DNA of 64,000 nucleotides, from NCBI GenBank assembly GCA_902630065.1, contig CACOTF010000001.1:1-64000 (forward strand), written 5' to 3'. This stretch comes from an uncultured Pelagibacteraceae bacterium (GTDB lineage: Bacteria; Pseudomonadota; Alphaproteobacteria; Pelagibacterales; Pelagibacteraceae). The notes under the pieces were generated by a model. The model was not told the origin of the DNA and did no database searches. It saw nothing but the letters and a program-made list of their open reading frames with translations. A program made the position numbers and the translations under genes. Below, piece after piece: positions 8,278 to 45,001 of the stretch (its first letter is position 1; each line of letters starts with the position of its first letter).

Positions 8278-8532
8278 ATGAAATACTTTGTTTATTTAAT
8301 CATATCTAAAAATAAACACAAATATCTCAGTTACGTTGGATATACTAATAATTTAAAGAAAAGATTGGCTAGACACAATGCTTCGAAAGGAGCAAAATTT
8401 ACTAGAGGTAGAAAATGGATAATAGCCTATAGTATGTGTTATAATTCAAAATCCAAAGCTATGAGAGAAGAATATAAGCTTAAAAAAAACTATAAACTTA
8501 GAAACAATATAAAATCTCATTTTAATAAATGA
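8278..8532 (+). CDS. GIY-YIG nuclease family protein
   Basis: YFVYLIISKNKHKYLSYVGYTNNLKKRLARHN...GRKW domain signature. Confidence 0.92.
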   Translation: MKYFVYLIISKNKHKYLSYVGYTNNLKKRLARHNASKGAKFTRGRKWIIAYSMCYNSKSKAMREEYKLKKNYKLRNNIKSHFNK

Positions 8533-9572: not shown

Positions 9573-10526
9573 TTATAATTTAATTTTATTTAATGCATTA
9601 TTTTTAAATATATTTGCTTCTCTAATATATCTTCTAACCATTTGTGTTGATTTATGACCAGTCATAGCCATTATACTTCTCTCATCCGCACCTGACTCGG
9701 CAGCAACTGTTGCAAAACCAGACCTTAAACTATGACCTGCAAAATTTTTGTTTTCGATATCTGCTAACTTTAAATACTCTTTCATTAATAAAACTACAGA
9801 TTGATCAGTCAATCTTTTGTCTGTTAACGATAAACCTTTAGAAAATCTTGTAAAAATAGGTCCAGACTTAATTTTAGAAATTTCTAACCATCTTTTAAGA
9901 TTTATAACAGGACAGTAAATTTCATTATTAAAGTAGGGTAGTCCTTTAGTCATTCCTTCCCCGTATTGGTCAGTTTTTGATCTTTTTATAGTAATTTTTA
10001 TACCCTCAGGAACAAATTCTAAATCCTCATGATCAATTGAAATGAGCTCGGTTCTTCTGAAGCCTCCTCCAAAGCCAATCAAGATTATTGATTTATCTCT
10101 CAGTTTTTTTATTTCCTCAGTTTTTTGTTCATTTATTACATTAATAATTGATTTTAAATGATTGATTAATATAGGTTTTTTACCCTTCTGAACACTTCCT
10201 TTGACCCTTCTTATTCCCATTAAATTTTCAACGATGATTGGATGTTTTGTGTCTAGATAATGCCCTTTAAGCTTATGAACCATGCTTATTGACACTATTC
10301 TTCGTCTCAAAGTGCTTATTTTTGAGTTTTTAGCTAGATGGGTTAAGTATAAGGAAACTATTTTTGGCTCTGTTGGTAATGGATTTAATCCATGCTTTGC
10401 ACAAAAAGCACAAAAGTCTTTAAAGTCAGATTTATAAGCTCTTAAAGTATTATTTGCCTTTGAGGTTTTAAGGTTATTTAAAGTTGCCTCATGAAGCAAT
10501 TTTAGGTCTGTTGTCAGTTCATTCAT
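9573..10526 (-). CDS. tyrosine recombinase / site-specific integrase
   Basis: Complete catalytic set: FGGGFRRTELISI (R), RSKTDQ (K), HSLRSGFA (HxxR), TGHKST (H), VRRYIREA (Y); SAM-like N-terminal domain. Confidence 0.92.
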   Translation of the reverse strand: MNELTTDLKLLHEATLNNLKTSKANNTLRAYKSDFKDFCAFCAKHGLNPLPTEPKIVSLYLTHLAKNSKISTLRRRIVSISMVHKLKGHYLDTKHPIIVENLMGIRRVKGSVQKGKKPILINHLKSIINVINEQKTEEIKKLRDKSIILIGFGGGFRRTELISIDHEDLEFVPEGIKITIKRSKTDQYGEGMTKGLPYFNNEIYCPVINLKRWLEISKIKSGPIFTRFSKGLSLTDKRLTDQSVVLLMKEYLKLADIENKNFAGHSLRSGFATVAAESGADERSIMAMTGHKSTQMVRRYIREANIFKNNALNKIKL

Positions 10527-10537
10527 ATAATTACTAT

Positions 10538-10556
10538 TGATAACATTTAATTATCA
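10538..10556. promoter_or_regulatory. 19-bp inverted repeat TGATAA-N7-TTATCA upstream of the integrase start
   Basis: Perfect 6-bp arms, 10538-10543 and 10551-10556. Confidence 0.4.
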
Positions 10557-10609
10557 TTAGTAATATATTAAGTGATTTTATATGTCAAATAAATTAATAC
10601 TAAAAATTC

Positions 10610-10789: not shown

Positions 10790-10862
10790 TTTATTAACGC
10801 TATTCACAGCTGTTAAAAACCCTTAATAATCAACTATAAAGTGATACAAATCATATTTGCAC

Positions 10863-10868
10863 TATGAT
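10863..10868 (+). promoter_or_regulatory. candidate -10 box (TATGAT) for the downstream RNA
   Basis: TATGAT about 16 nt upstream of the first hairpin; -35 is weak (AGTGAT at 17-bp spacing). Confidence 0.3.
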
Positions 10869-10883
10869 AGTTTCATCAATGAA

Positions 10884-11066
10884 TTAAGAGGCAACTCTTA
10901 ACTGACCATCTGGGGAAAAATCGAGAGATTCAAGCCCAGAGGGCAGAAAACCACGCAGAGTAGCGCTAAAATTGCGGGGTGGAAGGCATGGCGGTAGCGC
11001 ATACAACGACGTGCCAAAAACTACTGATCTTTGTACCTGTAAAGGTGCAGAGATACAGGGTTTTTT
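10884..11066 (+). ncRNA. unclassified structured RNA candidate (independent ncRNA or cis-regulatory leader)
   Basis: GC-rich island (62 G/C in 120 nt at 10921-11040, counted by hand); hairpins TTAAGAG-GCAA-CTCTTAA, TCTGGG..AATC-GAGA-GATT..CCCAGA, CCAC..GTGG, GGCATG..CGTGCC, 12-bp ATCTTTGTACCT-GTAA-AGGTGCAGAGAT; T6 tract at 11061-11066. Confidence 0.7.
11036..11066 (+). terminator. candidate intrinsic terminator, mutually exclusive with the hairpin at 11027-11054
   Basis: CCTGTA (11036-11041) / TACAGG (11054-11059) followed by GTTTTTTC. Confidence 0.5.
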
Positions 11067-11072
11067 CTTTAT

Positions 11073-11348
11073 ATGATCCTCAAAGGTACAAAATTTCAAG
11101 TTAAAGTTTGGGAATACTTAAAAACAATTAAAAAAGGCAGTGTTTTAACCTATTCTGACGTCGCAAAGGGTATTAATAAGCCTAAAGCTGTTAGAGCTGT
11201 AGCTAATGCTATTGGAAAAAACCCATATGCTCCTAAAATACCTTGCCATAGAGTAATCAAGTCTGATGGATCTCTTGGAGGATATTCTGGAAAAGGTGGT
11301 ATAAAAACAAAGAAAAAACTACTTAAATCTGAAGGAATTTTGCTCTAA
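11073..11348 (+). CDS. MGMT (Ogt) DNA-binding-domain-only protein, 91 aa
   Basis: GTKFQVKVWEYLKTIKKGSVLTYSDVAKGI ... VANAIGKNPYAPKIPCHRVIKSDGSLGGYSGG-like motif. Confidence 0.9.
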   Translation: MILKGTKFQVKVWEYLKTIKKGSVLTYSDVAKGINKPKAVRAVANAIGKNPYAPKIPCHRVIKSDGSLGGYSGKGGIKTKKKLLKSEGILL

Positions 11349-11859
11349 AAGTTAGCAATACCAACGTTTTTTTCAAAATTTAACTATATTTAGTATTACA
11401 ATTTAAAATTCCCCCATTGGTTGAAGCTTATAAATTGAAATATTTAAATTAGCCCTATATTTGGGCCATTAAACGCTATATTCATAAATTGCATTACTTG
11501 TGTAATTATTATGAAAATTACTATTTTTTTGTATGATTATAAGAATTAATATTAAGAAATTTCCATATCAAAATAAAATTAAGTTTTTATTATTGAAATA
11601 TTTGATATAAAATTTCTCCATATTTGTTGATTTTACTGAATTATTGTCCCCTATCTCATAATCCAATTTAATTGACTATTTTTATAATTCAAATAAGTGC
11701 ATATTTATTGATTATTTTTAATTACGAGCTCTTATTTAATTGAACATTTTATAATTTTATTCCATACTTTTTTATTTTATATATATAATAAAATTCAATA
11801 AATACAATAGTTTACAACTATTAATTAAAGTAATATATTAATAAATAGTACATATATAT

Positions 11860-42689: not shown

Positions 42690-44891
42690 ATGTATTTAAA
42701 ATTATTAACAACAATTATCCTTTTTTTCTTATCGTTTCAATCTGCTTTTTCAAATGAAACTATACTTCCTATTAAAAAACCAGATTTAAATGAAAAAAAT
42801 ACAACAAAAAAAATAGCTGAAATCATTCCTCTACCAAAACCATCTGAAAAAGAAGATGAAATTCAAAAGGAAATAAAAATTACCACCACTGAGATATTTA
42901 AGAAAATTGATGGTGTAATAATTCCAAAAAATAAGCCTCTAATAGTTAAAGAAAAATTAAGAAAGATAAAAAAACAAAAATTTTATAGCGATAGAGATTT
43001 GAGATATGCAAAACAAGCTATTTCATTTATGGAGAAAAGTAATTGGAAGGATGCAAAAAAAGCTGCAAGAAAAGCAAGAGCAAAATCTATTTATGATTTT
43101 ATTCAATGGAGACATCTACTTACAACTGGTAACAGGGCTACTTTTACAGAATATAAACAGTTTATCGAAAGAGTAAAAGATTATCCAAGGATAGATAGAG
43201 TTCGTTACTTAGGAGAGCATAAAATAAATTCTAAAAATCATACTAAAAATGAAATTATACAGTGGTTCGATAAACACCCACCCTTAAGTGGATTTGGAAA
43301 AATGATGCTAGGCGATGCTTTGTTATCAAAAAATAAAGAGACAGCTATAAATTTAATAAAAGAAGGATTTATTACAGCTGATTTAAGTAAAAATGATCTT
43401 ATTTTTTTTAGAAAGAAATTTAAAAAATATTTGAACAGTAGTGATTATATTAAAAGAGCTGATTATTTAGCTTGGGAGAATAAATATTGGGATCTTAAAA
43501 GAATGTTAAGATATCTACCTAAAGATTATCAACTTTTATATACAGCAAGGCAACTGTTAATGAGCAGATCTTATGGTGTTGATAGCGCTATATCGAATGT
43601 GCCTGCAAGTTTAAAAAAGGATGCAGGTTTAAATTATGATAGACTCAAATGGAGAAGGAAAAGAGGAAGAGTTGATAGTTCTTTAGAAATTTTACTAAGT
43701 ATAAAAAATAATAAAGACTATATGGTTCGCCCAGATAAATGGTGGGTTGAAAGATCAATAATTGCGAGATCACTTATTTATAAGAAAAGATATGAGCAAG
43801 CTTATAAAATTACAAGTAAACATGGTCTATCAGAGGGTGCCGAATTAGCTGAAGCTGAATGGATGAGTGGATGGATTGCTTTAAGTTTCTTAAAAGACCC
43901 AATTTTAGCAAAAAGTCATTTTACTAAATTTTATAATAATGTTGGATATCCAATTAGTTTATCAAGAGGTGCTTATTGGCTTGGAAAAGCGAATTTGGCA
44001 CTAAATAATAAGGAAGAAGCAGATAAGTGGTTTAAAGAAGGTTCAAAATATCTAACAACCTATTATGGTCAATTATCTCATATGAAAATATATCCAAATA
44101 AAACTTTTGAACTTAAAGAGAGTACTCAAGTTGATAAAAATTATGCTGAAAGTTTTTACAAAAATAAATTAGTGGCAATAGTACATTTATTAGATGAAGT
44201 AAAAAAAGATAAATATACAAAACATATTTTAAGATTTCTAGCAAATGACAATGTTTCAGCAGGGAGTGAGGTATTAGCAGCAAAACTAGCAACTGACATT
44301 TCTAGATTTGATTTTGCTATTCAGGTTTCTAAAATAGCATCTTATCAAAAAAGGTTTCATAACAAATATAATTATCCAGTAATAAGTACTCCAAATAAAG
44401 TTGGATCAAGAAAAATCCCAGAACAAGCTTTAATATTATCTATTATAAGACAAGAAAGTGAGTTTGATATATCTGCAAGAAGTAGAGTTGGAGCACAAGG
44501 CTTAATGCAATTGATGCCTTACACTGCAAAGACAGTTGCTAAGCAGGCAAAAGTTTCTTATTCAAAATCTCGTTTAACAACAAGTCCTGAGTATAATATA
44601 AATTTAGGATCTTTTTATATTGCAGGTTTAATTCTTGATTATGATGGATCCTACCCATTCGCTGTAGCAGCATATAATGCAGGACCAAAAAGAGTGAAGT
44701 ATTGGAAAAAAATAAATAAAGACCCTCAAAAGAAACAAATCAATTATGTTGATTGGGTAGAACTTATTAAGTTTAAAGAGACCAGAAACTATGTTCAGAG
44801 GGTTATGGAGAATTACAATGTTTATAGATACATTTTGTCTCAAAAACCAATATTTTTAAAAGATTTTTTTAGAAATAATCCACTCTATTAA
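42690..44891 (+). CDS. soluble lytic murein transglycosylase
   Basis: SIIRQESEFDISARSRVGAQGLMQLMPYTAKTVAKQ; AVAAYNAGPKRV (SLT domain). Confidence 0.95.
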   Translation: MYLKLLTTIILFFLSFQSAFSNETILPIKKPDLNEKNTTKKIAEIIPLPKPSEKEDEIQKEIKITTTEIFKKIDGVIIPKNKPLIVKEKLRKIKKQKFYSDRDLRYAKQAISFMEKSNWKDAKKAARKARAKSIYDFIQWRHLLTTGNRATFTEYKQFIERVKDYPRIDRVRYLGEHKINSKNHTKNEIIQWFDKHPPLSGFGKMMLGDALLSKNKETAINLIKEGFITADLSKNDLIFFRKKFKKYLNSSDYIKRADYLAWENKYWDLKRMLRYLPKDYQLLYTARQLLMSRSYGVDSAISNVPASLKKDAGLNYDRLKWRRKRGRVDSSLEILLSIKNNKDYMVRPDKWWVERSIIARSLIYKKRYEQAYKITSKHGLSEGAELAEAEWMSGWIALSFLKDPILAKSHFTKFYNNVGYPISLSRGAYWLGKANLALNNKEEADKWFKEGSKYLTTYYGQLSHMKIYPNKTFELKESTQVDKNYAESFYKNKLVAIVHLLDEVKKDKYTKHILRFLANDNVSAGSEVLAAKLATDISRFDFAIQVSKIASYQKRFHNKYNYPVISTPNKVGSRKIPEQALILSIIRQESEFDISARSRVGAQGLMQLMPYTAKTVAKQAKVSYSKSRLTTSPEYNINLGSFYIAGLILDYDGSYPFAVAAYNAGPKRVKYWKKINKDPQKKQINYVDWVELIKFKETRNYVQRVMENYNVYRYILSQKPIFLKDFFRNNPLY

Positions 44892-44986
44892 TGGCGGAAG
44901 GAGAGGGATTCGAACCCTCGGTACACCTTTTCAAGCGTACGGCGGTTTAGCAAACCGCTGGTTTAAACCAGCTCACCCATCCTTCC
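44892..44986 (-). tRNA. tRNA-Ser (GCT)
   Basis: Reverse strand GGAAGGA...TCCTTCC acceptor stem, GCGGT-TTGCTAA-ACCGC anticodon arm, long variable arm, encoded CCA. Confidence 0.94.
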
Positions 44987-45001
44987 ACGATAATATGTGT
45001 A

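Follow-up and report, generated by a model that had tools for sequence, protein, structure and literature searches.

Predicted kissing loops, a putative promoter and the patchy distribution of the IMES-2 RNA in SAR11 bacteria

Background

Few bacteria of the sea are as abundant as those of SAR11, and IMES RNAs occur in abundance in marine RNA samples. IMES-2 (Rfam RF02035) is an already catalogued marine RNA family, although in the open literature we found neither a function for it nor, the original 2009 publications aside, any paper that mentions RF02035 or uses the name IMES-2 for an RNA family. Meyer et al. (2009; PMC2704228) found their 'Cand. P. ubique' motifs by way of long intergenic regions that are rich in G+C within an AT-rich genome, the same clue that marks the RNA considered here; in the passages of that paper covered here, IMES-2 does not appear as one of the motifs.

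The GC-rich element and its identity

The window, by which we mean the whole 64-kb stretch of Pelagibacteraceae DNA that was analysed, has a G+C content of 28.0%, and reaches 50% or more over 120 nt at two places, 10879-11062 and 44880-44999. The second is a tRNA-Ser gene. In the first, the count of 62 G/C among the 120 nt at 10921-11040, made by hand in the initial annotation, is correct. Folding of 10877-11066 gives a minimum free energy of -70.5 kcal/mol. In 200 dinucleotide shuffles the value is -43.3 +/- 3.7 kcal/mol (z = -7.3), and no shuffle is as low.

The initial annotation proposed a structured RNA on the + strand with no family assignment. The structured RNA is upheld by the fold, by the covariation described below and by the cmscan result; the lack of a family is not, as RF02035 matches 10877-11017 (+) over its full length, with all model helices and four hairpins, at 161.2 bits against a gathering score of 54.7. 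On this match we regard it as virtually certain that the element belongs to IMES-2. Since a strong Rfam match had been named in advance as what would remove novelty, the element is not a new class, and what we add to IMES-2 is a well-supported loop-loop contact, a putative promoter, and an account of how the gene was probably inherited and lost in SAR11. Exclusion by eye of tmRNA, SRP RNA, RNase P and 6S RNA was sound: the element matches none of the first three (Rfam models, ARAGORN), and the Rfam model of 6S RNA (RF00013) has no match in the window. The features discussed below are as follows.

10801-10808 (+): DnaA-box-like site (TATYCAC), here TATTCACA, upstream of the promoter; a site of this type in 50 of 80 distinct loci
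10831-10847 (+): conserved putative promoter box CAACTATAAAGTGATAC at the -35 position; conservation over 80 loci
10865-10873 (+): putative extended -10 (TGNTAnnnT), here TGATAGTTT; column conservation in loci anchored on the box
10877-11017 (+): IMES-2 RNA, Rfam RF02035, model positions 1-141; 161.2 bits, E 1.9e-42
10884-10901 (+): hairpin 1, GCAA tetraloop; all cells (100%) paired, both-side changes in 4 of 7 pairs
10902-10946 (+): hairpin 2, with an internal loop rich in A and an apical loop of GNRA type (GAGA); 9 of 15 pairs changed on both sides
10950-10980 (+): hairpin 3; 8 of 8 pairs changed on both sides
10963-10968 (+): GCGCUA in loop 3, half of the predicted kissing pair; pairing in 95.8% and 96.7% of the cells of two alignments, compensatory changes in 3 of 6 pairs
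10985-11015 (+): hairpin 4; 5 of 9 pairs changed on both sides, a G-A mismatch shared by all
10995-11000 (+): UAGCGC in loop 4, partner half of the predicted kissing pair; complementarity in two alignments
11018-11069 (+): terminator-like hairpin and U-tract; fold, and a hairpin plus T-rich tail in 74 of 79 loci
11073-11348 (+): MGMT-type DNA methyltransferase domain gene (PF01035), a neighbour outside the RNA gene; 3' of IMES-2 in genus g1 only

Nested hairpins and covariation

Every helix that had been picked out by eye can be read from the sequence at its assigned position. The three GNRA tetraloops proposed are kept to differing degrees (genera are given the anonymous labels g1 to g9, g1 being that of the window). 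Among homologues the GCAA loop of hairpin 1 is invariant, and hairpin 2 keeps a GNRA loop of varying letters (GAGA, GCGA, GCAA, GAAA) except in g5, which is not alignable there; the GUAA that caps the last stem fits GNRA in the window but is not preserved in all relatives.

Our first alignment comprised 67 distinct homologues and was tested at 45 pairs, 39 of them nested and 6 between loops. Standard pairs make up 93.5% of cells, and 29 of the 45 pairs show changes on both sides, which exceeds all 500 shuffles and every slid version; two g5 rows are misaligned at hairpin 2, with the sole effect of lowering these counts. The second alignment, of 100 matches from a DNA-pattern search, gave 94.2% standard pairs and both-side changes in 22 of 39 nested pairs, figures biased towards nested pairs because this alignment was fitted to the nested structure, and drawn from genomes that partly overlap the first set. 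Covariation had been suggested as a check on the helices, and it is strong in homologues from four Pelagibacteraceae genera and in both alignments. Stem lengths are nearly constant among homologues, as are the GCAA loop, the GNRA loop of hairpin 2, the A-rich internal loop and the kissing loops.

Some copies stand apart. A shortened IMES-2 of 119 nt in a single-cell genome (L167:263-381; 86 bits) apparently lacks the loop of hairpin 4, and is either a decaying copy or an assembly fault. Strongly diverged copies, at 62-73 bits, occur in the single-contig genomes G101 and G104 of genus g5 (L060:1560-1701 and L061:1536-1677). Their helices have changed while the kissing pair is retained as GCAC/GUGC, and they make a good test case for the structure.

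The predicted contact between loops 3 and 4

GCGCUA in loop 3 is complementary over 6 bp to UAGCGC in loop 4. Variants of this pair among the homologues are GUACUA/UAGUAC, GCACU/AGUGC (in two genera), GUGCUA/UAGCA and UCGCUG/UAGCGA, so that the core GCGC/GCGC is replaced in a compensatory manner by GUAC/GUAC, GCAC/GUGC or UCGCU/AGCGA. The number of loop-loop cells changed on both sides is matched in none of 500 shuffles. The second alignment gives the kissing pair no advantage, because the nested model to which it was fitted does not contain this pair. From this pattern of substitution we consider it very probable that loops 3 and 4 form a kissing contact.

The same complementarity could join two IMES-2 molecules through loops 3 and 4, and the commonest loop cores are palindromic (UAGCGCUA, GCGC), like dimer-initiation sites. 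The GCAC/GUGC and UCGCU/AGCGA cores, however, are not self-complementary and loop 3 still matches loop 4 in them, while the similar stem lengths and the linker of 4-5 nt suit a kiss within one molecule; dimerisation is therefore improbable in our judgement. A reciprocal dimer, loop 3 with 4' and loop 4 with 3', is possible.

Promoter, terminator and gene boundaries

Upstream of IMES-2 we find the arrangement CAAC-N-A-N3-AGTGATAC, its core bases present in 78-80 of 80 distinct loci. Within the box, the GTGAT core (C or T at one base) keeps its G, G, A and T in all 80 loci and its remaining T in 78, and a C upstream is found in all 80. About 20 bp past the box lies the extended -10. The TATYCAC-type sites occur in varied gene contexts, for the most part at 39-41 bp from the AGTGATA box on its upstream side. 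They resemble a DnaA box, a statement of resemblance only. GC skew in G108, sampled in 20 stretches, has no clear switch by which to place the gene relative to the replication origin or terminus.

We considered, and rejected, a regulon that shares the promoter box. The pattern AACNANNNAGTGATA has a single occurrence in the window's own genome (G000), at IMES-2, and the single extra matches in G108 and G102 are within the control level.

Downstream, the hairpin with a T-rich tail was counted by a loose criterion and its sequence differs between genera. Taken together, this looks like a stand-alone IMES-2 gene of about 185-190 nt: the promoter box is kept in every locus despite neighbours that differ between genera, and the terminator-like hairpin is retained as its sequence changes, although g8 and g9 have weak U-tracts.

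Gene neighbourhood

In g1, IMES-2 lies between a tyrosine recombinase gene and the MGMT-type gene, the latter being downstream on the same strand in 69 of 70 loci and usually starting about 55 nt after the RNA. This, and the terminator-like hairpin between the two, is what would be expected if the RNA and its terminator were a cis-acting leader, an attenuator or riboswitch for the gene starting at 11073. Elsewhere in the family the same-strand downstream gene is not conserved: IMES-2 lies behind mnmA and faces a membrane-protein gene in g8 and g9, and in g5 its neighbours are a nuclease-like gene on one side and a gene of opposite orientation on the other. Moreover, a small ORF intervenes between RNA and MGMT gene in one locus (L007), and the MGMT gene persists in the IMES-2-negative genomes examined, so we hold a cis-acting leader to be quite improbable. 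Because contexts differ between genera, the conserved unit is the RNA with its promoter and not a gene linkage, and the RNA most likely acts in trans. On these comparisons IMES-2 is probably a stand-alone, trans-acting RNA, a reading in which we have considerable confidence.

Three further elements were seen in the window. Directly upstream of the tyrosine recombinase gene (9573-10526, - strand), a near-perfect 35-bp palindrome at 10530-10564, ATTACTATTGATAA-CATTTAA-TTATCATTAGTAAT, recurs with few changes in about 90 loci of two genera and could serve the recombinase either as its own lox- or dif-like site or as its operator. Near the MGMT gene, at about 11400-11540 (- strand), there is a conserved non-coding block (GCAATGCA...GAATATAGCGTTTAA...CAAC) with 81 matches among the loci examined; it also adjoins the MGMT gene in genomes without IMES-2, and RNAalifold shows no consensus structure for it in the same run that recovers the IMES-2 helices. 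A small GIY-YIG domain protein (PF01541, 1.6e-16) is encoded at 8278-8532, directly behind tRNA-Glu and followed by a glycosyltransferase gene.

Distribution, inheritance and loss

IMES-2 matches were found in 30 of 101 close relatives and in 140 of 297 genomes from the order; among the 150 genomes of good quality, 75 have one. They fall in 4 of 11 genera, with one copy per genome. Most of these genomes are incomplete single-cell assemblies, and single absences therefore mean little; the argument is carried by the single-contig genomes. Carriers among the latter are G108, in the window's genus, and G101 and G104 in another. In a scan of public contigs, all records among the matches listed are from SAR11 and nearly all are titled Pelagibacteraceae, which together with the counts in the order agrees with a family of marine bacteria. 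Carriage by phage was considered and rejected, the core pattern being found in 0 viral contigs.

Six single-contig g1 genomes have no IMES-2 homologue detectable with the models used, including one built here, and so IMES-2 is not indispensable. In IMES-2-negative genomes the model built here gave weak matches only (E 5e-4 to 8). Those inspected sit in apparent open coding sequences, the strongest at what looks by eye like an rpoA/rplQ junction, and we do not regard them as hidden homologues.

On an rpoB tree, g5, g8, g9 and the early g1 branches carry IMES-2, and the g1 negatives are all in one sub-clade, mixed with positives, requiring at least four changes within g1. The simplest reading of this pattern is that IMES-2 was ancestral in the family and has been lost several times. 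It is also possible that it was regained by exchange.

Possible mode of action

An Hfq-dependent sRNA presupposes Hfq in the genome, and a CsrA-sequestering sRNA presupposes CsrA. Neither protein was found in any of 12 SAR11 genomes (5 Hfq controls and 3 CsrA controls were positive), a set in which the window's own assembly is 68% complete and the others mostly more than 90%. Rfam 6S was likewise found in 0 of 101 relatives, with Caulobacter and other controls positive, although a 6S RNA could be present yet too divergent for the Rfam model. That no Hfq, CsrA or Rfam-detectable 6S was found in the SAR11 genomes searched weakens the standard sRNA mechanisms, and the lack of the two proteins narrows those available to IMES-2; Hfq-dependent antisense action and a CsrA sponge are specifically disfavoured.

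A stand-alone gene with promoter and terminator is the usual build of an sRNA, and IMES-2 might thus be a trans-acting antisense RNA that pairs with mRNA through its open A-rich stretches or loops. We think this unlikely, given the lack of Hfq in the 12 genomes, the small amount of unpaired sequence and the occupation of the conserved loops by GNRA loops and the kissing pair. The missing 6S in turn invites the idea that IMES-2 replaces it in sequestering RNA polymerase. This is very improbable, as IMES-2 has no long single hairpin bearing a central bubble, and 6S is missing also from the genomes that lack IMES-2, so that IMES-2 is not a simple 6S substitute.

Stem lengths and loops that hardly vary, together with genomes in which neither Hfq nor CsrA was found, point to a folded binding RNA more than to an Hfq-type antisense RNA or a CsrA sponge. 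The best explanation as a whole, to which we assign a probability of roughly 0.5, is a stand-alone IMES-2 gene whose folded RNA acts in trans. IMES-2 would have its own promoter and be transcribed by itself. The kissing loops would hold hairpin 3 alongside hairpin 4, and further contacts made by the GNRA loops and the A-rich internal loop would render the RNA rigid in three dimensions. Such an RNA might bind in trans a protein or core machine (RNA polymerase, the ribosome and a regulator are examples), a step to which we give about even odds, and would act neither by long antisense pairing nor by controlling the next gene. Against this explanation stand the six single-contig genomes of the same genus that lack the gene, and the MGMT gene that follows closely in nearly every g1 locus. 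More speculatively, and rather doubtfully, this tertiary-folded kissing-loop RNA could be a global core-machine regulator in a lineage without Hfq, CsrA or detectable 6S, repeatedly lost in one g1 sub-clade.

IMES-2 is a trait of the main SAR11 family, and its function is open to experiment: there is a kissing-loop constraint, the gene boundaries are clear, and there are both single-contig carriers and close relatives without the gene.

Comparison with known RNAs

The window RNA shares with IMES-2 as modelled in RF02035 the nested hairpins and a full-length match, and differs in the kissing pair of loops 3 and 4, which is missing from the nested model as run, the form of the family compared here. 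With 6S RNA (RF00013), IMES-2 has in common that it is a stand-alone structured RNA of similar length, but its architecture is unlike that of 6S. Two hairpins lying next to each other, alike in length and linked by a loop-loop kiss, are also seen in the purine and lysine riboswitches. In those, the kiss is formed within a ligand-binding junction ahead of the regulated gene, whereas the hairpins of IMES-2 are arranged in series, without a known ligand, and the adjoining gene is not conserved.
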